Origin: Bdellovibrio sp. GT3
GTDB lineage: Bacteria; Bdellovibrionota; Bdellovibrionia; Bdellovibrionales; Bdellovibrionaceae
Direction: 5' to 3'
NCBI RefSeq assembly: GCF_037996765.1
Contig: NZ_JBBNAD010000005.1
Location: forward strand, 404,001 to 468,000
Length of the DNA stretch: 64,000 nucleotides
Part shown: positions 23,789 through 36,052 of the stretch, in pieces
Numbering within the stretch: position 1 is the first letter of the stretch
How the letters are laid out: each line of letters opens with the position of its first letter
The notes under the pieces: model-generated
The model's database searches: none
Told to the model about the DNA's origin: nothing
What the model saw: only the letters and a program-made list of their open reading frames with translations
Program-made: the position numbers and the translations under genes

Positions 23789-25510
23789 ATGCTACCTGAG
23801 ATTAAAAAGTTACTTGCTGAAATTAAACCTCACAAAAAACGTTTTACCGTGGTTGCGGTCACCGGCATCTTGAATGCGCTGGCAACTGCACGGGTCGCTT
23901 TCTTGTCAAAGGTGCTATTCGATGCACTTTCAGCCAACAATCAGGATGAGCTTAAGAAACAAGTTCCAATCGTAATTGCACTTGGTTTTATTCAATCTAT
24001 TTCCAGATACTATCACTTGTATAATATGAACTACATTTCTGAGGCAGTTGTCGCGCAGGTTCGCCAAAAACTTCAGTACAAGTTCATGCGTTTGAATCTC
24101 TCCTTCCACAACACCTATGCAACAGGCTCCGGCGGTTTGATCAGCCGTATTCTTAATGACATCAAAACCATTCAAGATGGTTTGCGCGTCGTTGCCGATA
24201 TCTTTTTGTATCCACTCCTGCTGATCGGTTTGCTCGTCAATCTGGTTGTCATCGACTGGAAGCTGACTTTGGCGGTATTGATCGTTGCACCTTTGGTTGG
24301 AATGATTCTTAAGTCCGTTGCCCGCAGTATGCGCAAGTACATTCCGCGCGAACGCGACACCATGGAGCACATGACCTCCACCATCAAGGAAAGCCTGGAT
24401 GGAGTGCGGGTTATTCAGTCATTCAATCTTGAAAAAGACATGGCAAAACGCCTTGAGGACGAATCAAACATCTTCCTGAAGATCCGCAAAATCGTATTCA
24501 AACGCCAGGAAGCAGCAGGCCCTGCAACCGAGTTTATCGCCACTTCCATCGTTCCGTTGATCATGCTGTACAATAGCTATGAGATCGCTGCGGGCCGCGG
24601 AACTGCTGGTAACTTTATTGGCTTTATCGTTTCCTTGTTGATGGTAAATGCTCCAATCAAAAAGATTCAGGAAGCTTACATCCGTATTCAGGAAGTTGTG
24701 ATTTCAGTCCGCCGTATCTTTGAAATCATCGACAATACTTCAGAAGTTCCGGAAGTTGCCAATCCTGTTGCCTTCCCTAAAGACTGGAAAAAGATCAATT
24801 ATAAAAACGTAAGCTTCAGTTACGGCAAAGAGATGATCCTTAAAAATGTGAATCTGGAAATCAACCGCGGTGAAGTGGTGGCCTTGGTCGGCGCCAGCGG
24901 CTCGGGTAAATCGACGATCGTGAATCTTCTGGAAAGATTCTTTGATTCAACTTCCGGTGAGATCCTTATCGATGGCGTAAATATCAGAGACATGGGCTTA
25001 AAAGATCTTCGTCGCAATATCGCTCTGGTCACTCAGGACGTGTTCTTGTTCAGCGATACCATCGAAAAGAATATCTGGGCTGGTGACTACAACCGCGACC
25101 GCAATGACATTCAAAAAATGGCGCAACTTGCAAATGCCCACGACTTCATCATGAAGATGCCACAAGGCTATCAAAGTCGTGTTGGTGACCGCGGAAATCT
25201 TTTGTCTGGCGGTGAAAAACAACGTGTCAGCATTGCTCGTGCGATGTTTAAAGATTCTCCAATCCTAATTCTGGATGAAGCTACAAGCGCCTTGGATACA
25301 GCCAGCGAAATCGAGGTTCAAAAAGGCCTGGATCACCTTCTGGAAGGTCGTACGGCTCTGGTGATTGCGCATCGTCTGTCCACAATTCAAAAGGCTGACA
25401 AGATTGTCGTCATGAAAGCCGGTCAAATTGTGGAAATCGGAACACACGCAAGCCTGTTGTCACTAAAAGGCGAATACCACAACTTCCACAGCCTGCAACA
25501 GACTACTTAA
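23789..25510 (+). CDS. ABC exporter, MsbA-like (fused TM and ATPase)
   Basis: A 573-residue half-transporter. Six TM helices occupy about residues 15-310, and the ATPase domain starts near 335 (VSFSYGKEMILKNVNLEINR). Walker A is GASGSGKST, the Q-loop VTQDVFLFSDT, the signature LSGGEKQR, Walker B ILILDEATSALD and the switch VIAHRLSTIQ, all intact. The layout matches MsbA and related lipid or drug exporters, which act as homodimers in the inner membrane. The substrate cannot be told from sequence. No lpxK follows, so a dedicated MsbA role is only possible. It starts 21 bases after uvrA and overlaps the convergent esterase gene by 8 bases. Confidence 0.88.
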   Translation: MLPEIKKLLAEIKPHKKRFTVVAVTGILNALATARVAFLSKVLFDALSANNQDELKKQVPIVIALGFIQSISRYYHLYNMNYISEAVVAQVRQKLQYKFMRLNLSFHNTYATGSGGLISRILNDIKTIQDGLRVVADIFLYPLLLIGLLVNLVVIDWKLTLAVLIVAPLVGMILKSVARSMRKYIPRERDTMEHMTSTIKESLDGVRVIQSFNLEKDMAKRLEDESNIFLKIRKIVFKRQEAAGPATEFIATSIVPLIMLYNSYEIAAGRGTAGNFIGFIVSLLMVNAPIKKIQEAYIRIQEVVISVRRIFEIIDNTSEVPEVANPVAFPKDWKKINYKNVSFSYGKEMILKNVNLEINRGEVVALVGASGSGKSTIVNLLERFFDSTSGEILIDGVNIRDMGLKDLRRNIALVTQDVFLFSDTIEKNIWAGDYNRDRNDIQKMAQLANAHDFIMKMPQGYQSRVGDRGNLLSGGEKQRVSIARAMFKDSPILILDEATSALDTASEIEVQKGLDHLLEGRTALVIAHRLSTIQKADKIVVMKAGQIVEIGTHASLLSLKGEYHNFHSLQQTT

Positions 25511-26435
25511 ACTGCTCCGACAACCATTTCATCACATACGGCATGCGACAGCTCCAATAGCTGTTCGCATGTGTATTATCCTTACCACAATCCTTAATGC
25601 CAATTTCAAATTCAGGATGGTTCTTTTTTAGTTCCTCAATGAAGGCCTTAGTATCCGGAGTATCTTTCAAAAACGAATCCGCAGAGCCAATCTCTAATTG
25701 GAAATTCTTAAAGGGCAGACATCTCTCGCTCCCTGGCTTTTTTAGCTTGTCACAGATATGGCGAGCGCTGCGGGCTTCAAAGTCCTTGCCGACACCATAG
25801 GAGTAGTAATCTTCTTTGGGCTGATTTTGATTGGTGGTTGGAGTCCAGATTTCCGAAGGCGTTCGAAACACCGGGCTCATGGAAAAGACAGTACACACCA
25901 AATTGGGATTACTTAGACCCAGTTGTAAAGCTCCATTTCCACCCATGGAAATTCCAAATAAAGCGCGATCACAGGGCTCGTTCTTGATAACCTGAAAGTG
26001 AGTTTCGATATGTTCAACCAAGTCTTTAGTAACCATATCGGCCATCTTTACCTTGGAGATCGCACCGTTCATCCAGTAATGACTTTGGCCGTTTGGAGCA
26101 AAAATCAAAAACGGTCTACCGCCACTACGAATCGTTTGGTCATAAGCCTCCAGGCCACCAGCATATAATAGTGAATCACGATCGCCTCCGCGCCCATGCA
26201 GAAAAATCGCATAGGGGTACGGGGTCACTGTATCCGGCATATAACCCGGAGGAACGATAACGTTGAATTCAACTTTCTTTTTCAAACTTTTTGAAAAGAA
26301 ATTCGACGAAAGACAGCGCGACGTAAATACTCTTTGATTAAAAACTTTCGCATCATACGGTTCACACCTGTTAGTGTTTGCAAAAACATTGAACGAAATC
26401 AAACCTAGAAAAACGCAGAGAATTAGACATTTCAT
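25503..26435 (-). CDS. Secreted esterase (putative esterase family)
   Basis: A 310-residue alpha/beta-hydrolase of the esterase D/feruloyl-esterase-like group. The signal peptide ends near FNVFAN. Visible motifs are FLHGRGGDRDSLLY (oxyanion region), the nucleophile elbow FGISMGGNGAL, the acid region LEIGSADSF and a late histidine in DNTHANSYWSCRM. Several cysteines suggest disulfides outside the cytoplasm. The frame is open from 26492, but the ATG at 26435 gives the proper signal peptide. The substrate is unknown: prey or carbohydrate esters are possible in a predator. An inverted repeat (26493-26515) lies just upstream. Confidence 0.8.
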   Translation of the reverse strand: MKCLILCVFLGLISFNVFANTNRCEPYDAKVFNQRVFTSRCLSSNFFSKSLKKKVEFNVIVPPGYMPDTVTPYPYAIFLHGRGGDRDSLLYAGGLEAYDQTIRSGGRPFLIFAPNGQSHYWMNGAISKVKMADMVTKDLVEHIETHFQVIKNEPCDRALFGISMGGNGALQLGLSNPNLVCTVFSMSPVFRTPSEIWTPTTNQNQPKEDYYSYGVGKDFEARSARHICDKLKKPGSERCLPFKNFQLEIGSADSFLKDTPDTKAFIEELKKNHPEFEIGIKDCGKDNTHANSYWSCRMPYVMKWLSEQFK

Positions 26436-26492
26436 ATCCTTTAACGATAGCACATCACATTTTCGTTTCAATTTGAGTCGGCACATAAACAT

Positions 26493-26515
26493 GGGAAATC
26501 ACGGAGTTATTTCCC
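26493..26515. promoter_or_regulatory. Inverted repeat in the divergent esterase/activator region
   Basis: GGGAAAT (26493-26499) and ATTTCCC (26509-26515) are perfect 7-base arms around a 9-base spacer. The position between the esterase and sigma-54 activator genes fits a regulator-binding site. Confidence 0.35.
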
Positions 26516-26660
26516 GTAGATCCTAAATCAGTGTACGAAAATTATATGACCAAGGTCCGGGTTTGCATGAACTTTCGACACAACCCTCAAGTCCGTCTAG
26601 TTTCTTGACGATAAAAATATCGACAGTTTGAAAGTTCTAGAAAAAGAAAAGGGAGTTGAA

Positions 26661-28217
26661 ATGATTAATTGGGATGAGTTTGAACATATACATGTTATCA
26701 AAAAACTCAAACATATCCTTAGCGCTTGGTGGAATATCGACGTTGTATTCACTGACGAGCGAGGTGCACTAAGAGGGTATGACTCCGGCAAAGCTGGTTT
26801 CAACAATCCTGCAATCGCGGCTTTGGTAAATAAAGAAGCCGGTCAAGCCAGCATTGCTGAGCTTGTAACGAAATCACTTGATGATCTTCGTACTTCACAA
26901 AACCGCTTTTCATTGCGCAAGTGGGACATGGTTGGTTTTGATGTGGGTGTATTCCCTATCATGATCGAAAACGATTGTGTTGGTACAGTTGTGGCGATGG
27001 GTTTCTTCCGTGAAGCCAACTTTACTTCACGCATGACTGAAATCCGTGAGCGCTTGGCCGCTTTCGGCATGTCTGGCGAAGTGATTGAAAAATGCTTGGG
27101 CAAATTGAAGTTCCTGGATGACCATGAACGCACACACTTCACTGAAGTTTGTGAATTGGTTGCTCAAGAGATCGTGACTCTTCACTTGGAAATCACTTCC
27201 CGTGAAGATCGCATCAAAGAATTGAACAAAGAACTTGGCAACAGATTTAAATACGACAACATGATCGGTAAATCCAAGCCAATGCAATCCCTTTACGCTT
27301 TGCTTGATAAGATCAAAGGCGCGGACTCCACAGTTCTGGTTCAAGGGGAAAACGGTACGGGTAAAGAGTTGATCGCAAAATCGATCCACTACAACTCTCA
27401 CCGTAAAGAAAAGCCATTTATCATTCAGAACTGTTCTGCATTCAATGACAACTTGTTGGAATCAGAATTGTTCGGTCACGTGAAGGGTTCATTTACTGGC
27501 GCTTTGAAAGACAAAAAAGGTCTTTTCGAAATGGCAGACAAAGGTACATTCTTCCTGGATGAGATCGGGGATACGTCTCCACAGATGCAAGTTAAGCTTC
27601 TTCGCGTGTTGCAAGAAGGTACTTTCACTCCAGTAGGTGCGACTGAAATGAGAAAAGTCGATGTTCGTATCGTTGCGGCGACGAACAGAAACCTAAAAGA
27701 AATGGTTGAACAAGGCACATTCCGTGAAGACTTGTACTACCGTCTAAATGTTATCAATATCCGCGTTCCGCCTTTGCGTGAGCGTAAAGAAGACATTCCG
27801 TTCCTGACGGATTTCTTCTTGAACAAAATCCATGAATCTCAAGGTGGCGTTAAGCACCAATTGACGAAGCGTGCACTTGAAAAACTGTACGACTATCCAT
27901 GGCCAGGTAACGTTCGTGAATTGCAAAATGAAATCGAAAGACTTTGCGTTCTTTCCGGCGAAGAATCCAAATTGATGGGTGAGCTTCTTTCCCCAAAAAT
28001 CCTGGAAGCTGGCGAGAAAAACAAAGTTCAAGGTTCCCGTTTGCAAGGTAAGTTGAAGGATGCGTTGGAAGATCTTGAGCGCGAAATGATCCGCGAGGGT
28101 CTTCGCCGCACAGGTTGGAATAAATCCAAACTTGCAAAAGAACTGGGCATCAGCCGTGCAGGTCTTATCATGAAGGTTGAAAAGTACGGCCTTGATAAGC
28201 GTAAGATCGCCCGCTAA
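26661..28217 (+). CDS. Sigma-54 activator with PocR-like sensor domain
   Basis: A 518-residue NtrC-type transcription activator. Residues about 10-165 look like a PocR/GAF-related small-molecule sensor (WNIDVVFTDERGALRGYD and FPIMIENDCVGTVVAMGFF) rather than a phospho-receiver. The AAA+ core follows: Walker A GENGTGKE near residue 229, GSFTGA near 276 (a variant of the GAFTGA loop that contacts sigma-54), Walker B TFFLDEIGD, ATNRNLKEM and the R-finger region FREDLYYRLNV. The C-terminus is a Fis-type HTH (NKSKLAKELGISRAGLIMKV). I chose the ATG at 26661 with GGGAG upstream over a TTG at 26628. The probable target promoter lies just downstream at 28359-28374. Confidence 0.9.
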   Translation: MINWDEFEHIHVIKKLKHILSAWWNIDVVFTDERGALRGYDSGKAGFNNPAIAALVNKEAGQASIAELVTKSLDDLRTSQNRFSLRKWDMVGFDVGVFPIMIENDCVGTVVAMGFFREANFTSRMTEIRERLAAFGMSGEVIEKCLGKLKFLDDHERTHFTEVCELVAQEIVTLHLEITSREDRIKELNKELGNRFKYDNMIGKSKPMQSLYALLDKIKGADSTVLVQGENGTGKELIAKSIHYNSHRKEKPFIIQNCSAFNDNLLESELFGHVKGSFTGALKDKKGLFEMADKGTFFLDEIGDTSPQMQVKLLRVLQEGTFTPVGATEMRKVDVRIVAATNRNLKEMVEQGTFREDLYYRLNVINIRVPPLRERKEDIPFLTDFFLNKIHESQGGVKHQLTKRALEKLYDYPWPGNVRELQNEIERLCVLSGEESKLMGELLSPKILEAGEKNKVQGSRLQGKLKDALEDLEREMIREGLRRTGWNKSKLAKELGISRAGLIMKVEKYGLDKRKIAR

Positions 28218-28237
28218 TTTGCGGCACCGATTTTAAA

Positions 28238-28249
28238 ATATTTACCCGT
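28238..28249 (+). repeat. 12-bp repeat, upstream copy (candidate activator site)
   Basis: ATATTTACCCGT, identical to 28335-28346. This copy runs into a GTTCGAAC palindrome and lies about 110 bases before the -24 element, a usual distance for sigma-54 enhancer sites. Confidence 0.5.
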
Positions 28250-28264
28250 TCGAACTAAAATTAG

Positions 28265-28298
28265 AGGGCTTTGAAGGACTACTTCAAGGCCCTTTTTC
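28265..28298 (+). terminator. Intrinsic terminator after the sigma-54 activator gene
   Basis: AGGGCTTTGAAG and CTTCAAGGCCCT form a 12-bp stem with one G-T pair and a 5-base loop, followed by TTTTT. Confidence 0.85.
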
Positions 28299-28334
28299 TA
28301 TGCTCCAAACACAGCTAAGCACATGAAATCACGC

Positions 28335-28346
28335 ATATTTACCCGT
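28335..28346 (+). repeat. 12-bp repeat, promoter-proximal copy
   Basis: Second exact copy of ATATTTACCCGT, ending 12 bases before the -24 element at 28359. See the copy at 28238-28249. Confidence 0.5.
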
Positions 28347-28358
28347 ACACTCAACACT

Positions 28359-28374
28359 TGGCACCGCTCTTGTA
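28359..28374 (+). promoter_or_regulatory. Sigma-54-type -24/-12 promoter
   Basis: TGGCAC (28359-28364), five bases, then TTGTA (28370-28374). This matches the consensus TGGCAC-N5-TTGCA at ten of the eleven fixed positions; only the C of the -12 GC is T. Spacing is exact. Transcription would start near 28385, 20 bases before the start codon at 28407. Confidence 0.65.
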
Positions 28375-28406
28375 TATAAGGGTTTTTGTTAAGGGGTGTT
28401 TTTAAT

Positions 28407-29279
28407 ATGCAAAGTACAACTTTGGAATCATCATTTGTATCTCGTCTTAAGCAGCTGGTGGAAACTCGCTACGGCAAAGACCTGCAAATCCGTCAGCTGA
28501 TGGATATGTCAACGATGCTACCTGATCAGGATACATACTTGCGGGGCAATGACTTTCACGTTCCCATTAAAGTAAATGGCTCCCTGCTGGGCACTGCGAT
28601 CGTTCCTTCTGCATTGGATCTTAATGCTGAAAAACGCCAAGGCGTCACACAGCTGATTCGCATGGTTCTGGAACCAGCTCTATACAAATGGTATTTGGAA
28701 CAAAAAGAATCCAATCTTGTAGAAATCAGCAAAGCAAACTTCGCCACCGAGAACCTTCATGTATTCGGCGACGAGGCCATGCCAAGCATTGATGAACTTC
28801 TGGAAGACAACTCCGAAGACCTGGCCAAAGGTCTGTCAACGGAACTTGTTTCTCACTTGATTCACCTTGAGGGCTCCACCAACACGACAAACAAAAAAGT
28901 CGCTCTGCAATTGCATGAGCTTACTGGACGCTGGGCATTTGTTCCTTTCAACGACATCAAAGGTCAACTGCACTCCAGCTTCGATATCGCTAAAATGGGT
29001 GCAATGACAGTTTTCGTCGAAAGAATCGAAGATTTGAACTCTGCTGAGCAGGAATTACTACTGGATTATCTGCGTGAAGAGCATGAATCTGATGAACCTC
29101 TTATCATCACGAGCTCAGCTCTTAGCCTGGAAGAACTTGGCAAGCTGGAAGGCTTGGCATCTGACCTTGTTGACGAAGCTTCGGTGAACTGTTTCGAGGT
29201 GGACCGCGCTCCATTGACGACACAGGGTTTGAAAGAGGTTCTGGAGTTGTTCTTTATGAAGGAACCAGAGATCACATAA
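28407..29279 (+). CDS. Degenerate NtrC-like protein, probably without ATPase activity
   Basis: A 290-residue protein that does not match a named family for me, but its order of elements mirrors the activator encoded just upstream. VPIKVNGSLLGTAIV resembles the sensor-domain core; LIHLEGSTNTTNKKVALQLH (near residue 151) sits where Walker A should be; MTVFVERIEDLNSAEQELLL (near 203) parallels the Walker B stretch TFFLDEIGDTSPQMQVKLL; and PLIITSSALSLEELGKL parallels VRIVAATNRNLKEM. The P-loop lysine, the DE pair, the GAFTGA loop and the HTH are missing. It may sense a signal or oppose the activator. AAGGGG precedes the ATG, and the promoter is of sigma-54 type. Confidence 0.65.
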   Translation: MQSTTLESSFVSRLKQLVETRYGKDLQIRQLMDMSTMLPDQDTYLRGNDFHVPIKVNGSLLGTAIVPSALDLNAEKRQGVTQLIRMVLEPALYKWYLEQKESNLVEISKANFATENLHVFGDEAMPSIDELLEDNSEDLAKGLSTELVSHLIHLEGSTNTTNKKVALQLHELTGRWAFVPFNDIKGQLHSSFDIAKMGAMTVFVERIEDLNSAEQELLLDYLREEHESDEPLIITSSALSLEELGKLEGLASDLVDEASVNCFEVDRAPLTTQGLKEVLELFFMKEPEIT

Positions 29280-29319
29280 GTTCTTGTCTTTACAATGAGT
29301 GTCTGTGAGAATTTTTCTT

Positions 29320-30342
29320 ATGGTCACTCATGATGCTTTTCTAAATTCATTTTTAAGTCGCTCTTTGTCCACTGACGCATTCAAAGTATTCTCTCTTGCG
29401 GGAGATGCTTCGAATCGTCGCTACTACCGCGTGGTGCATGACAATCAATCCTGGGTGCTGATGCGCTGGGAACCCTTCGATCCACTGAACTACCCGTTCA
29501 TGAGTGTATTAAATCACTTTTCAAAAAATGGCGTCCATGTTCCTAAAATCGTTGCGATGTCACCGGAAGAGGGTCTTGTTCTGTTGGAGGATCTTGGCGA
29601 TTTGATGCTGGAGCGAAAGTTCTGGGAAAGCCAAAGTCATGAATCTTCCATGGAGTGGTATAAAATGACTGTGGATGAGGTTGTTAAAATCCACCACAAA
29701 GCGACGTTGGATAATGATCCGAACTGTTCCGCCTTCAAGATGAAATTCGATACTGAAAAGTTCCTGTGGGAAATGAATTACGGCAAAGACAATTTGCTGG
29801 CCGGAATTCTGAAGTTCCCTTTCAACGAAAAGTCCAACAAGGAAATTTCAGATATCTTTTTGGATATCTGCTCGAAGCTTGATGCCGAACCCAAGCGAAT
29901 TGCTCATCGTGACTATCACTCCAGAAATGTGATGATCAAACTCGACAAAGTCCATATTATCGATTTTCAGGACGCTCGATTGGGTCCGATCCAATACGAC
30001 CTGGTTAGCTTAATGCGCGACTCTTACGTCGATATGAGTGACGATATGGCCAACAAACTAATCAACTACTACCTTGAGCAATCAAAGCAGTATTTGCCCA
30101 AAGACTTCTCCCGCGAGCATTTTGACCGCGTGTATGAACTTCAGTCCATTCAACGCTGCTTTAAAGCCTGCGGAAGCTTCGCAAGCTTCTTCCATCAGCG
30201 TGAAGACCGTCGTTACCTAAAATATCTGTCTGGCACTCTACGCAGAGTCATGAAAGCCATCAACGAGTTCCCGGAATACAAAGTATTTGCGGATATTCTG
30301 ATTGATTCAGGTGCATTGGAAAGAAAGTACGAATCCCTATGA
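29320..30342 (+). CDS. amgK: AmgK-like amino-sugar kinase (APH fold)
   Basis: A 340-residue aminoglycoside-phosphotransferase-fold kinase. SLAGDASNRRYYRV is the nucleotide-binding start, HRDYHSRNVMIK the catalytic loop and IIDFQDARLGPIQYDL the metal-binding loop; this last motif is typical of AmgK, which phosphorylates MurNAc and GlcNAc at C1. The downstream gene overlaps it by 4 bases and encodes a nucleotidyltransferase of the MurU kind, so the pair probably recovers wall amino sugars to UDP-sugars in the cytoplasm. The start could be the GTG at 29299 or the ATG at 29320; I prefer the ATG. It begins 40 bases after the degenerate activator gene without a terminator and is probably co-transcribed from the sigma-54-type promoter. 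Confidence 0.8.
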   Translation: MVTHDAFLNSFLSRSLSTDAFKVFSLAGDASNRRYYRVVHDNQSWVLMRWEPFDPLNYPFMSVLNHFSKNGVHVPKIVAMSPEEGLVLLEDLGDLMLERKFWESQSHESSMEWYKMTVDEVVKIHHKATLDNDPNCSAFKMKFDTEKFLWEMNYGKDNLLAGILKFPFNEKSNKEISDIFLDICSKLDAEPKRIAHRDYHSRNVMIKLDKVHIIDFQDARLGPIQYDLVSLMRDSYVDMSDDMANKLINYYLEQSKQYLPKDFSREHFDRVYELQSIQRCFKACGSFASFFHQREDRRYLKYLSGTLRRVMKAINEFPEYKVFADILIDSGALERKYESL

Positions 30343-31331
30343 ATGTAATGCTTCTTGCAGCTGGCGAAGGAACTCGTCTTCGCCCTTATACGAATATTCT
30401 GCCCAAACCTGCCATGCCATTTCTGACTATTCCCTTGGCGGCACACTCCTTGGGCTTTCTGCAAGAAGTGGGAATTTCGAAGCTTGTCGTAAACACCTAT
30501 CACCTGCCTGAAAAAATCCACAGCTTGTTCAACAGAATCAATCACGGGGCGCAAAAGCTCGTGTATTGCGATGAAGTGGGTGAAATTCTTGGGAGTGGCG
30601 GCGGACTCAGCAATGCCCGCGAACACTTCAAAGGTGGCGGTGATTTCATAATGATGAATGCCGACGAAGTCATCTTGCCGAAGGATTCCGAAGTTCTAAA
30701 AAAAGCCATCGCCCACCACAAATCCTCCGGTGCCTTATCCACTTTGATGGTTATGGATCACCATGAAGTTGGTACCAAGTTCGGCGGTGTTTGGACAGAC
30801 TCTGCCGGAAACATCAAGGGATTTGGAAAAACAAAAATCGAGAACTGCGAAAAGGCCTGGCACTTCATTGGTGTGCAAATTCTGTCCGAAAGAATATTCG
30901 ACTATCTGCCAGCGAGTGGCGTTTCCAATATTCTATATGACGGCGTGATGGCTGGGGTTGCCAAAGGCGAGAAAGCTCAAGTCTTTCCGTTTGAATGCAC
31001 TTGGTTTGAAACCGGCAATCCCGCGGATTTGCTGGAAGCCTCCAAGCACTGCTTGCAGGTTATGATGGCCACTGATTCCCCGGAAAAACAAGCTCTTGAG
31101 AAAACATTCTCGCAGTTTGCAAAAGCGCGAATCGTTACGCAAAAGTTTGATCAGGCCACTTTGCAGTTTTCTGCAGAAGCGCTGATTGACAACAACTCAA
31201 AATTTTCTGGTTTTGTAAGTGTGGGATCTAGAACGACTATCGGAAAAGATTGTGTTCTGGAGAATGTCATTATTGGGGATGACGTGACGGTTGCTGACGG
31301 CACTCGCGTCAGCAACACGATCCTACTATAA
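30339..31331 (+). CDS. murU: MurU-like sugar-1-phosphate nucleotidyltransferase with left-handed helix tail
   Basis: A 330-residue protein. The N-terminal nucleotidyltransferase (about residues 1-230) has LLAAGEGTRLRPYTNILPKP and VYCDEVGEILGSGGGLSNA. The C-terminal part (about 265-330) reads as hexapeptide turns (GFVSVGSRTTIGKDCVLENV), a left-handed beta-helix. Pseudomonas MurU has about 223 residues and no such tail, so this is either an extended MurU or a relative acting on another sugar phosphate. Coupling with the AmgK-like kinase supports UDP-MurNAc (or UDP-GlcNAc) recovery. ATGA overlap with amgK; it ends 1 base from the convergent gene at 31333. Confidence 0.75.
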   Translation: MNVMLLAAGEGTRLRPYTNILPKPAMPFLTIPLAAHSLGFLQEVGISKLVVNTYHLPEKIHSLFNRINHGAQKLVYCDEVGEILGSGGGLSNAREHFKGGGDFIMMNADEVILPKDSEVLKKAIAHHKSSGALSTLMVMDHHEVGTKFGGVWTDSAGNIKGFGKTKIENCEKAWHFIGVQILSERIFDYLPASGVSNILYDGVMAGVAKGEKAQVFPFECTWFETGNPADLLEASKHCLQVMMATDSPEKQALEKTFSQFAKARIVTQKFDQATLQFSAEALIDNNSKFSGFVSVGSRTTIGKDCVLENVIIGDDVTVADGTRVSNTILL

Positions 31332-31332
31332 A

Positions 31333-32304
31333 TTACTTCTTTAAATCGATATCAGCTGAACCAAAAAATGAGTCCTGGCTTTCTTTGACTTTGTATCGTC
31401 GGGACATCATTAGAAAAATACTATCAGCGGCCACACCAATGGGTTCGCCGTTATAGTTCTTGCTCATGCCTGCCGCCAGTCTGGACGGATCCTTATCCAG
31501 CAAACTTGCCGAACCAGAGCCACCAGAGCCTGCGTATCCAGGGTATCCAGCACCAGATGATGAACCATCATCGCTGGGTAGTCGACCACCGCCGCCACCG
31601 CCAGCACCATCTTCATATCCATTCACTGCTGTTGTGGAGCCGATCTTAACTTTTTCCAAAGCTTTCTTTTCAACTTGGGCTGCCCCAGCCATCGCCGAAT
31701 CGATTGCACCTTGTGGCAGACCCGCCGCCGCCATACCTGCAGCTGAAGTCATATCATTTACATTGTAAGAGGTTCCGTCCGGCGAAGTGATTTTCGTTGC
31801 TGAACCATTCACCAAACCCTTGGCTTTTAAATCACTAAGACCCGCTTCGGCTTTTTTCATATAGTCAGAGCCAACTGCCGCCACAGACTTATACTCTGGA
31901 TCACTTGTTACGGATGAATTGTAATTACCATTCGAGCCATAGGCGTCAGACAAGTCCCCTGTGTAAGCAGCTTGAGATGCCTTATTGCCATCTTCTTTTG
32001 CCTGCTTCATGGAAAGAATCGCCATCGCCGTAAAGGCGGCGGCAACTGCACAAGCACTTTTATCGTCAGATGAACAACGCGACCAATTGATTGCGGCAAT
32101 CCCAAACTCCGTGGCACTGGCCACGGCATTGATTGCCTGACCTTTGTTATTGGCTTTTGCAGAATCATCAGCAGAGCTGTTTACCGCAGTAGCATAGGAA
32201 GAAGTATTGCTGCCATCCACTCCCGAAGTTGCAAATGAGCACACCGGAGCCATTGCCAAGCTAAGAGTGCACGCCGATGTTGTTATGGTTTTTATCATCT
32301 TCAT
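31333..32304 (-). CDS. Secreted Gly/Ser/Ala-rich protein of the TadG-like cluster
   Basis: A 323-residue protein with signal peptide (ending PVCSFAT). The mature part is rich in Ala, Ser and Gly: an Ala-rich helical segment (about residues 35-110) with two cysteines (RCSSDDKSAC), then a glycine/serine linker (about 232-265, with a run of six glycines) and a more normal C-terminus. I recognise no family. It starts 9 bases after the upstream secreted protein gene with AGGAG before its ATG, so the two are one transcript. Function is unknown; the context suggests a surface or pilus-like structure. Confidence 0.7.
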   Translation of the reverse strand: MKMIKTITTSACTLSLAMAPVCSFATSGVDGSNTSSYATAVNSSADDSAKANNKGQAINAVASATEFGIAAINWSRCSSDDKSACAVAAAFTAMAILSMKQAKEDGNKASQAAYTGDLSDAYGSNGNYNSSVTSDPEYKSVAAVGSDYMKKAEAGLSDLKAKGLVNGSATKITSPDGTSYNVNDMTSAAGMAAAGLPQGAIDSAMAGAAQVEKKALEKVKIGSTTAVNGYEDGAGGGGGGRLPSDDGSSSGAGYPGYAGSGGSGSASLLDKDPSRLAAGMSKNYNGEPIGVAADSIFLMMSRRYKVKESQDSFFGSADIDLKK

Positions 32305-32313
32305 CGCGGTCTC

Positions 32314-33786
32314 CTAGTTATTAATTAATGAGGAACGGTTGTCCTGGTAGCGCTCGCGAACTTTTTCCCAGTTGGATTTTCCACCCTGACCGGTCACTTC
32401 TTTGCTCGCGTTTGTAGTTCCACCATTCATTTTCAAAGGATCTTTTGCTCCGCCTGGCAAGTAACTGCGATAGCCCGACTTATCACTGTCGGCATCTCCG
32501 CCACCGCCCCACATACCACCACCTCCGCCGCCACCACCGGCGCCGCCAAGGATGTTTGTATCAAGAGCTTTCTGACCGCTTTTTTCCTCACCTGCAGCAC
32601 CAGCGCCACCGAAGCCGCTGCCACCACCAAGGTTTGCTCCGCCACCACCAACAGGGGCCCCTGCGCCACTGGCTGCGCTGGAAGGATTACGAGCACCTGA
32701 AATATCAGGGTCTGCGTTGCCCACAGCAAGATCTGCTGCCGTCAAACCGTCAGTTCCCGCTTCTGAAGAACCGGCCGATAGAGCTGACAAGCCACCACCA
32801 GAGGCATTCATAGATGCTTTAGCAGCTGTGGATCCACAACCTTCAAGCATTGGATTTTTTAAACAGATACACTCTGGCAAATTTGCATTAGCTGCAACAG
32901 CACAAGTTTCAGCAGTCGTTGCACCTGCAGTTGAAGCATCCGCACTGGATTCTTCTTCACAGCTTTCACCTTGTTTTAGTGATTGTGCGATACCAAAGAT
33001 ACCTGCCGCAGCAGAAATGGCCAACTGTGCATACTTTCCAGTACAAACTTCAGCTTTACCAGCGACGGAAAGATTGTTTCCTTTTTCAAGTTCTTGAGCC
33101 ACAGCTCTCGCCATCGCATTTCGAACTTCGTAATAAGCAGGTTTACATGCTTCTGGGGCATTCGGATTCTTACAAGTAATACTGAGCTGACCATTTAAAA
33201 CTTTGTACAGTTTTGTAAGTCCATCTCGAGCAGCTACACACGACATACCACAACCCGCCTTCATAACACCACATGCACCGGTGTAAGCGGTCATAGCGTA
33301 TTTTGCGATATCCATAGCCTTAGCAAAGTTACTGCACGAATCCTTTACCGCTGCGCTCCCCACCGTTGACATCAAAGTATTAACTGCGGCAACGCCATCT
33401 TGAATTGCAGGACTCCAATTCTCTAAACAAGCATACGCAGCTTTTTCCTGGCGACTGATACATGCTTGACGATTGTTTTTATATTCGATCATTGCGTCAC
33501 GAATCGGTATTTCAGCTTTATCCAAAACTTGCACCCATTGAGCAGCAAGACCTTTATAGTTGGCTTCAATTTGCGCATAAACGCTATCCAACCCCCTGCC
33601 CGCACCATCAGCGCCATCGGGAGGATCTTTTGAGGGATTTATAGTAGTTGGTGTTGAACCGGCAGCTTGCTTTTGCTTTGGAACACCGACATCTTTTTCA
33701 GAATAGGAATCCTGAGCAAATACTGGAGTGTGCGCAAAGCTTATTGCAAAAAGAATAGTAAACACGCGATGAATCGCATTACTCAT
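32314..33786 (-). CDS. Secreted cysteine- and glycine-rich protein of the TadG-like cluster
   Basis: A 490-residue protein. A signal peptide (ending THTPVFAQ-like, residues about 1-25) precedes a helical domain with many cysteines (about residues 95-320: ACISR, AYACLE, TGACGVMKAGCGMSCVA, CICLKNPMLEGCG). A disordered Gly/Ser/Ala tail follows, including a run of eight or more glycines near residue 425. The AGGGGAA site precedes the ATG at 33786. Cysteine spacing suggests several disulfides. No family is recognised. It lies between the TadG-like gene (79 bases upstream) and a second Gly-rich secreted protein, with similar composition. Confidence 0.7.
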   Translation of the reverse strand: MSNAIHRVFTILFAISFAHTPVFAQDSYSEKDVGVPKQKQAAGSTPTTINPSKDPPDGADGAGRGLDSVYAQIEANYKGLAAQWVQVLDKAEIPIRDAMIEYKNNRQACISRQEKAAYACLENWSPAIQDGVAAVNTLMSTVGSAAVKDSCSNFAKAMDIAKYAMTAYTGACGVMKAGCGMSCVAARDGLTKLYKVLNGQLSITCKNPNAPEACKPAYYEVRNAMARAVAQELEKGNNLSVAGKAEVCTGKYAQLAISAAAGIFGIAQSLKQGESCEEESSADASTAGATTAETCAVAANANLPECICLKNPMLEGCGSTAAKASMNASGGGLSALSAGSSEAGTDGLTAADLAVGNADPDISGARNPSSAASGAGAPVGGGGANLGGGSGFGGAGAAGEEKSGQKALDTNILGGAGGGGGGGGMWGGGGDADSDKSGYRSYLPGGAKDPLKMNGGTTNASKEVTGQGGKSNWEKVRERYQDNRSSLINN

Positions 33787-33865
33787 AAATGTTCCCCTAC
33801 CTGTCTCTTTTCGGACAAAAGTCAGAGAATCTTAAGTGTCTCATTTTGAGAAATTAAGAATGAAT

Positions 33866-36052
33866 CTAGAAGTCTGAAGGAGGCAAATTCTTGATCTTGG
33901 CAGCTCCGGAGTTATCTCCACCCAATTGCAGCTCAGAATTCAAATAGTCAGAGGAGATCATTTTAACCGAGTAACCGGAGCTTCCACCCACAATACAATT
34001 GCCAGAAGTTGGCGGAGCAGGAGTTTCACCCTCGTATTTAGGTTCAATTGTACACTTACCCAGCTTGTTGGTGTTCAAAGAGTAGTCAAGCAGACCGTTG
34101 TCAGCCCACCCCGTAAGAGTGTGCTTCCAGTCCTTGGAGATATAAGTAAGTTTTTGATCAATATCCAGCTGCAGTTCCTGAATCTCGCGGTTTTTCAAAA
34201 CCTTATATTGATCCTTCACACTGAATGCTTCCAGGTTTTCGCCACCCTGGTTGTAATCCTTGTGATGTCCGATATCGGGTCTTACAAGCTTATCGAAACC
34301 TGAAACCACTTTTGGGATGAACTTGTCTTTAATGCGAGTGTAATAGTTATGATAGAAGTCCGGCTCGATAGAGTAATAAGCCATATCGAATTGATCTGGT
34401 AAAACTGCCAGTAACTCCAGATTTCTGAATCGCGAAGGTCCGCGTGTTTCTTCGCTCCAAGCCAGCATATCCCCGTTTCCGGAATTCTTTTTTGCAAAGT
34501 CGAACGGCAATTGCTTCCAATGATCGAAGTTCGGTGCATTGTCACGCAAGTCAGCTTGTGTGTTTGAACGCCCCTGGCTCCAAGTTGGATCTAATCTGAA
34601 AATGGCGCGACCGAATTGGAAAAGCAAGTTACGGCTTTTCATCCCTACCGGATCACCAATAAAGCGGCTGTAGTTTCCGGCACGGGTTGCATCTTTAGGG
34701 TTACCGATATTGCTTGTATCGAAAATTCGCGGAGGCAGATTCTCATCCATCTTTCCGCCACCAGCAGATCTGTCAGATCCAGACGGCCATTGGGATTCAT
34801 ACCAAGGACCCATGCGACCACCAAAAGGCTTAAAGAATGCGCGCGCACGTAACTGCACGGAACCCAGTGGTGAGAATGGAATATTCGGCGTCGCCGTCGC
34901 ACTCACACCCACATAGGCCATACACCAAGGGTTCTTTTCAACACCCATGGAGTAGTTGTACGGATCTTCAATATTTTGGCGAAGCCCTACGAACTGAGAA
35001 AGCTCACTAATCTCTCTCCACAGTGGATGGCCCTGATCCTCGCGAACTTCACGCGGCCAATTGTTTCGATCGGATGCCAATTCTTTTGGAACAGAAACGA
35101 TACGGCTCTCTTCCTGTCGGCACTCAGTATCGATATAATTGAAAGCCGGTGCAATTCTGACTGGCACCAACCATTTTGCAGGCATGGTATCCGTTGCAGG
35201 ATTATTACAACCTTCAGCACCAAGCGAGTTGTACACTTGCACCCTTAGAGCATCGTTGTTGTTAGCTGATGTCAGATTGTTTCTAAGGGTATTTAGAATA
35301 CCTGTCTTAACGCTATCACCATCTAAATCATGAAAGTCACTGGTGCTGTTACTCATGGAGCGCGACATTGCCGCGATCAACAACATGCGATCACCTTGAT
35401 CGATATTATAAGCCACCACATATTGAGCCAGCAGACGGTAGTTGAATGCACCGAAGTATCGGCAACGTTCAAAGGCCCGACTGCGTAAAAGTTCAGTCGC
35501 ATTACTGATCGCCGCATTGATGCTATGGTGCAGAGCTATGGGTTTGGTTTGCTCGAAGATTCTGATGCCACTGTTGGACTTCAAAAACTTACATGTATTC
35601 TCCCCATCCGGCATCGGCTTGAAAGGAACGTAAGTGGCACAAAACGAAGGTGCATCGTAAAAGTCCCGCGCACTCATGTTGATGTCATCAGTGTCAGCAG
35701 ATCCCGGGCGCAAGGTCAGACCCCGCGAAGGATCTTTTAAAAGCGGATGCTCCTCGAAATCCCCGGCAGTTCCAATCATACGATAGCGCCAAGCCAGCAA
35801 CTTCCAGCTTTGACGAATCTGATAGTTCACATGTGCGATGGCGTTCATGTTCTCGGCCTGCTTCATCGCCCCATAGTAAGCGGCGAAATCCACAGAGTTT
35901 TGCAGATTGATTTTGTGGTGAACCAGAAGACCCACATTGATGACCATCGCGAAAAATATAAACAGTATCTGGAATATGAGGGCAACAAAAAGAGCAACCT
36001 GACCTTTGCGATTTCTCAGTATTTGAATAAGTGGTGGTTGGTCTTTCATCAT
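33866..36052 (-). CDS. TadG-like pilus-assembly or surface protein
   Basis: A 728-residue protein whose N-terminus matches the TadE/TadG-like anchor: a short basic start (ILRNRKGQ), one TM helix at about residues 17-40 (VALFVALIFQILFIFFAMVI) and the alignment-type LVHHKINLQNSVDFAAYYGA. TadG proteins are minor subunits or tethers of Tad/Flp pili. The large remainder (residues 60-728) is periplasmic or extracellular, contains cysteines and many aromatic residues, and matches nothing I know. Start ATGATG at 36052-36047 has a weak ribosome site. None of the Tad motor genes (tadA, tadB, tadC, rcpA) is in the window. Confidence 0.75.
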   Translation of the reverse strand: MMKDQPPLIQILRNRKGQVALFVALIFQILFIFFAMVINVGLLVHHKINLQNSVDFAAYYGAMKQAENMNAIAHVNYQIRQSWKLLAWRYRMIGTAGDFEEHPLLKDPSRGLTLRPGSADTDDINMSARDFYDAPSFCATYVPFKPMPDGENTCKFLKSNSGIRIFEQTKPIALHHSINAAISNATELLRSRAFERCRYFGAFNYRLLAQYVVAYNIDQGDRMLLIAAMSRSMSNSTSDFHDLDGDSVKTGILNTLRNNLTSANNNDALRVQVYNSLGAEGCNNPATDTMPAKWLVPVRIAPAFNYIDTECRQEESRIVSVPKELASDRNNWPREVREDQGHPLWREISELSQFVGLRQNIEDPYNYSMGVEKNPWCMAYVGVSATATPNIPFSPLGSVQLRARAFFKPFGGRMGPWYESQWPSGSDRSAGGGKMDENLPPRIFDTSNIGNPKDATRAGNYSRFIGDPVGMKSRNLLFQFGRAIFRLDPTWSQGRSNTQADLRDNAPNFDHWKQLPFDFAKKNSGNGDMLAWSEETRGPSRFRNLELLAVLPDQFDMAYYSIEPDFYHNYYTRIKDKFIPKVVSGFDKLVRPDIGHHKDYNQGGENLEAFSVKDQYKVLKNREIQELQLDIDQKLTYISKDWKHTLTGWADNGLLDYSLNTNKLGKCTIEPKYEGETPAPPTSGNCIVGGSSGYSVKMISSDYLNSELQLGGDNSGAAKIKNLPPSDF

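Follow-up and report, generated by a model that had tools for sequence, protein, structure and literature searches.

Sigma-54 activators, partner proteins and the locus

In Rhodobacter sphaeroides, FleQ together with sigma-54 drives an operon containing FleT, and FleT in turn pairs with FleQ (PMC7277832, PMC3162934). The locus described here lies in a window of 64,000 nucleotides from Bdellovibrio sp. GT3 (the whole stretch of DNA that was analysed), and it resembles that system in that a sigma-54 operon includes a second activator-like gene without a DNA-binding domain. It differs in two respects: (i) published work treats FleT as a sigma-54 activator, whereas the protein encoded here retains an N-terminus of sensory type but has lost Walker A, Walker B and the GAFTGA loop; (ii) the other genes of the FleT operon are flagellar, whereas those found here encode sugar enzymes. 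By analogy, the FleT precedent shows how a degenerate partner could act at this locus. Partner proteins also tune activator output in the HrpR/HrpS/HrpV system of Pseudomonas syringae; in the part of the published account on which this comparison draws, alongside general background, HrpV is not described as a dead AAA+ paralogue, which sets it apart from the present case (PMC4145663).

The locus has the make-up of an ordinary sigma-54 promoter with an adjoining activator gene, namely a -24/-12 element, a conserved upstream site and an AAA+ activator. In contrast to the ordinary arrangement, the -12 element here is TTGTA nearly genus-wide, the enhancer distance varies by no more than 1-2 bp in almost all species, and a single site exists per genome. 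RpoN has been annotated in Bdellovibrio as bd0843 (PMC3464611), and the literature search turned up no work on Bdellovibrio sigma-54 promoters or their activators, nor any on the present locus.

A conserved, predicted sigma-54 promoter with a lineage-specific -12 element

28359..28374, + strand: sigma-54 -24/-12 promoter, TGGCAC-N5-TTGTA, kept in 24/24 genus genomes

The string TGGCACCGCTCTTGTA at 28359-28374 (+) matches 10 of the 11 bases of TGGCAC-N5-TTGCA, as the preliminary description had reported. The GG and the exact 10-base spacing to the -12 dinucleotide are present, and the one base that differs is the C of the GC at -12, so that TTGC is replaced by a GT-containing form. From the -24/-12 position, the operon would be predicted to start near 28385. 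Taken alone the string is unremarkable: the window holds 22 -24/-12-like sites with at most two mismatches versus 16.6 expected, and a degenerate -24/-12 pattern gave 18 genome matches versus 8 for the reversed control. Its conservation is what raises the site above chance. A TGG(C/T)A-N6-TTGTA-type element could be recognised at the orthologous position, upstream of the orthologous gene, in every one of the 24 Bdellovibrio genomes, with TTGAA replacing TTGTA in one genome and TTGC in none. In most distant genera of the family, the canonical GGCAC-N5-TTGC is found at this position (with the -12 GC in G026, G029, G030, G031 and G034), and the -12 T is common to G025, G028 and G035. This spread over the genus and some other genera indicates that the -12 T is a lineage trait rather than decay in one strain. 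The genome contains one rpoN gene. On this comparative evidence, the -24/-12 site is real and evolutionarily preserved, and very probably serves as a sigma-54 promoter, as had been proposed from the string itself.

Outside the locus, the exact pattern TTGGCAY-N4-CTTGTAWT had just two other matches in the 24 genomes, which is about chance, and no regulon emerged from shared sites. Canonical TTGCT -12 sites were seen just upstream of FliL-like and flagellar-rod-like genes (L039, L044), suggesting that ordinary TTGC sigma-54 promoters seem to be in use in the genome.

The conserved upstream element

28231..28264, + strand: conserved upstream element and candidate enhancer, CCCTAAAnnAnTTACYnnnnTGAnCKAAAnTTAG, in 24 Bdellovibrio genomes and G035
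28238..28249, + strand: ATATTTACCCGT copy 1, 109 bases upstream of the TGG and within the conserved ~34-bp element
28266..28297, + strand: intrinsic terminator of the activator gene (fold of the region -26 kcal/mol, z -3.5)
28314..28331, + strand: weaker second site, cTAAg....TGAAATcA, ~45 bp upstream of the -24, from column conservation
28335..28346, + strand: ATATTTACCCGT copy 2, 12 bases upstream of the TGG and not conserved as such

The gap between the activator gene and the operon is 189 bp long and contains the two exact copies of ATATTTACCCGT that had been noted earlier as a pair of enhancer sites. The repeat itself is rare by chance: no further copies exist in the 3.58-Mb genome, and an exact direct repeat of at least 12 bases arose in 14 of 5000 shuffles of the gap and in one of 672 window tiles. 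The candidate enhancer pair was rejected on conservation, because copy 2 has no counterpart in the other genomes aligned beyond a partial match in the closest relatives, and copy 1 belongs to the ~34-bp element. Thus, of the two features for which the preliminary description had suggested a comparison among relatives, the -24/-12 element is kept and the repeat pair is not. A strong intrinsic terminator, which had been overlooked, sits between the copies and places copy 1 in the 3' untranslated region of the activator gene.

The element, in contrast to the repeat, has a nearly fixed place. It starts 126-128 bp before the TGG in 23 of the 24 genomes and 115 bp before it in L020; outside the genus, the distance is 125 in G035 and 99 in G034. 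Pairwise identity reaches 75% in the element and 77% in the promoter, versus 38-44% in the sequence between them. The spacing holds despite extra sequence between activator and operon in L010 and L019, and it holds with or without the activator's terminator, which is present between element and promoter in many species. The element pattern occurred once each in 19 genomes, always at this locus, and nowhere else in the 24; the reversed control gave zero matches in the same genomes. Five genomes, the source genome included, have more than three mismatches to the pattern, and their element was assigned by position. Since a transcribed signal would have no need to keep its distance to the -24 constant, and since a terminator directly follows in many species, the element appears to work as DNA. 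Rfam gave no match in 26000-32000. A candidate looping enhancer at 28231-28264 is the best reading of this pattern of conservation, and it is likely to be bound by the neighbouring activator. The weaker second site has 52% pairwise identity, versus 38-44% for its flanks.

Dimeric activators usually need a dyad site, and an enhancer is usually a dyad. Dyad scoring of the conserved element gave no significant score, and a dyad was therefore rejected as a description of it. The element is hardly recognisable in G024, yet the activator's HTH is unchanged in this genome.

The activator gene and its own putative promoter

26587..26613, + strand: TCAAG-N16-ACGATA, a putative FliA (sigma-28)-type promoter for the activator gene, kept in the aligned upstream regions
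26661..28217, + strand: NtrC-family sigma-54 activator (Pfam Sigma54_activat and HTH_8) with PocR/GAF-like sensor, AAA+ domain and Fis-type HTH

The gene just upstream, which had been read as encoding an NtrC-type activator, does carry the Sigma54_activat and HTH_8 domains, and its product contains all the expected motifs: Walker A (GENGTGKE), the loop GSFTGA and Walker B (FFLDEI), in addition to HTH_8. Its N-terminus had a weak PocR match in eight of eight members (best 3e-6), and the N-terminal sensor fold had just weak GAF-like matches. Activator identity is 70-96% across the family and 70-91% in a scan of 16 genus and family genomes, and the HTH region is essentially invariant among eight aligned sequences; the activator is more conserved than the first operon gene (27-85% identity). 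In almost every family member the activator adjoins the operon; the exceptions are G016, where it lies ~5.7 kb away, and G036, where the two are on separate contigs. In G029 and G032, about 1 kb separates them. Some 10 further full-length activators are encoded in the genome. For an activator that hardly varies, having just one site is unusual, and this one may have other targets.

The FliA consensus TTAAG-N16-CCGATA is present in 66% of the attack-phase promoters mapped in B. bacteriovorus (PMC3627812). Upstream of the activator gene, TCAAG-N16-ACGATA matches 9 of the 11 bases of this consensus with exact spacing and is matched by a conserved sequence in relatives when the upstream regions of 19 genomes are aligned, and no -24/-12 element was noticed in the same region. 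This putative promoter suggests that the activator is probably fed by FliA. The closed local circuit that had been proposed is therefore retained in outline, as activator, promoter and operon, and probably loses its closure. A putative secreted esterase (PF00756) gene lies divergent from the activator gene, on the minus strand at 25503-26492 of the window.

The three-gene operon and its degenerate first product

28407..29279, + strand: degenerate activator-like protein, 290 aa, with sensory-type N-terminus and AAA+ fold; first operon gene
29320..30342, + strand: APH-fold kinase, AmgK-like (best or near-best NCBIfam match), in the operon at 30/30 loci
30339..31331, + strand: sugar-phosphate nucleotidyltransferase with hexapeptide tail, MurU-like (best or near-best NCBIfam match)

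The three genes behind the promoter, already noted as a group in the preliminary description, stay together as an operon throughout the family, at 30/30 loci. Orthologues of the first gene were found in 24 of 24 genus genomes and in most of the family. Its product is modelled with the AAA+ fold of sigma-54 activators: in the AlphaFold model (mean pLDDT 73.6, with residues 111-144 poor), the AAA+ domain had DmpR, NtrX and NtrC1 as its best PDB matches (Z about 11), and Foldseek matched the model to DmpR with an E value of 1.7e-5. The Sigma54_activ_2 domain was detected in 18 of 21 orthologues, and the protein of the source genome scored 21.4 bits versus the Pfam cut-off of 25. With shallow alignments, hhalign aligned the AAA+ part with the activator family at no significance. 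A PDB sequence search returned a weak DnaA-related match alone. Across the orthologues, no intact Walker A and GAFTGA loop were found in the product of 28407-29279, and orthologue alignments also lacked Walker B and the HTH. The fold is thus kept and the motifs lost, indicating a relative of the activators that is not, by these tests, a functional activator. A second activator-like protein of 280 aa is encoded elsewhere in the genome (G000:C5:140905-141291; L079, ORF 1078-1920 on the minus strand); it has an intact Walker A (GEAGVGKT) and an HTH-like C-terminus, the GAFTGA loop region is missing, and its gene adjoins that of a TPR-type protein.

The other two genes resemble the AmgK-MurU pair of cell-wall sugar salvage in that a kinase gene and a nucleotidyltransferase gene are adjacent. 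They differ in that both proteins score far under the NCBIfam equivalog cut-offs, with 141 bits versus 550 for AmgK and 79 bits versus 250 for MurU. Cell-wall sugar salvage is accordingly offered here as a lead only for the role of the operon.

Ahead of the first operon gene's start codon, AAGGGGT is conserved. In L017, L018 and L005, sequence has been inserted between the -12 element and this gene's ribosome-binding site, so leader length varies in these genomes, whereas the enhancer distance does not. Downstream of the operon, positions 31333-36052 of the window hold three adjacent minus-strand genes, two of which encode secreted proteins with glycine-rich stretches; the product of the third, 728 aa long, has a pilin/TadG-like membrane segment at its N-terminus.

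Proposed circuit and alternative explanations

The locus probably operates as a dedicated relay from FliA to the activator and on to sigma-54, with a local target operon. FliA, the attack-phase sigma factor, would transcribe the activator gene, and the activator would sense a signal via its PocR/GAF-like domain, bind 28231-28264 and perhaps also the weaker site at 28314-28331, loop over about 127 bp and remodel sigma-54 polymerase at 28359-28374. Transcription of the three-gene operon would then start near 28385 and yield the activator-like protein, which has no motor, sigma-54 contact loop or DNA-binding domain, followed by the AmgK-like kinase and the MurU-like nucleotidyltransferase. The relay is supported by the -24/-12 element in 24/24 genomes, its spacing from the upstream element, the single element per genome, the one rpoN, the adjacency of activator and operon, the FliA-type promoter and the FleQ/FleT precedent. 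It is weakened by the absence of a significant dyad, the unchanged HTH in G024, the other activators of the genome, the distance in G016 and the off-consensus -12 T. The link between activator and promoter is well supported by the comparative sequence evidence, and FliA control of the activator gene is what we infer from its upstream region.

Several of these weaknesses would also fit a different binder, in which the promoter depends on sigma-54 and the element is bound by another activator or an unrelated regulator, the neighbour being linked by position alone. The ten or so other full-length activators, the element without a clear dyad and an HTH that is conserved even where no element can be recognised all favour this explanation; however, the activator gene sits beside the operon in almost every family member and the element occurs once per genome, at this locus only, which leaves another binder rather unlikely. 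It is considerably less probable that the element is itself a promoter and the -24/-12 a second start. A FliA-like layout (CTAAA-N16-TCGAAA) with the 16-base spacing of the FliA consensus is indeed seen in many species, but roughly half of the genomes have T or A in place of the key -10 G, the spacer bases TTAC and TGA are nearly invariant, a terminator comes directly after the element in many species, the source strain included, and a constant distance to the -24 would be purposeless. The missing G and the terminator led us to reject a FliA promoter at the element.

The 12-bp repeat is very improbable as a pair of enhancer sites: its copies are exact, genome-unique and seldom matched in shuffled gaps, but the second is missing in other aligned genomes and partial in the closest, and the first is conserved solely as part of the longer element. 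Least credible of all is a coincidental -24/-12 string with the operon using another promoter. Such strings do arise by chance at the observed frequency and the -12 C is missing; nevertheless, one position is conserved in all genus genomes, and the canonical form appears in most other genera.

Implications for the predatory cycle

The relay from FliA through the activator to sigma-54 leaves a place for the degenerate protein, which, by analogy, may modulate the activator, most likely through hetero-oligomer feedback. A more far-reaching version, which we regard as speculative and on balance doubtful, is a sigma-54 feedback device present throughout this genus of obligate predators, in which a catalytically dead descendant of an activator without DNA binding would join the activator's ring and shut off or retune its own production, so that cell-wall sugar salvage would be coupled to the switch from attack to growth. 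Together, the activator, the promoter and the dead look-alike suggest a dedicated, perhaps self-limiting switch for cell-wall-sugar genes. With its single target, nearly constant spacing and a dead activator paralogue as the first product, this conserved pair of candidate enhancer and promoter makes two questions testable: how FliA passes control to sigma-54 during the predatory cycle, and whether activators are regulated by dead AAA+ partners.
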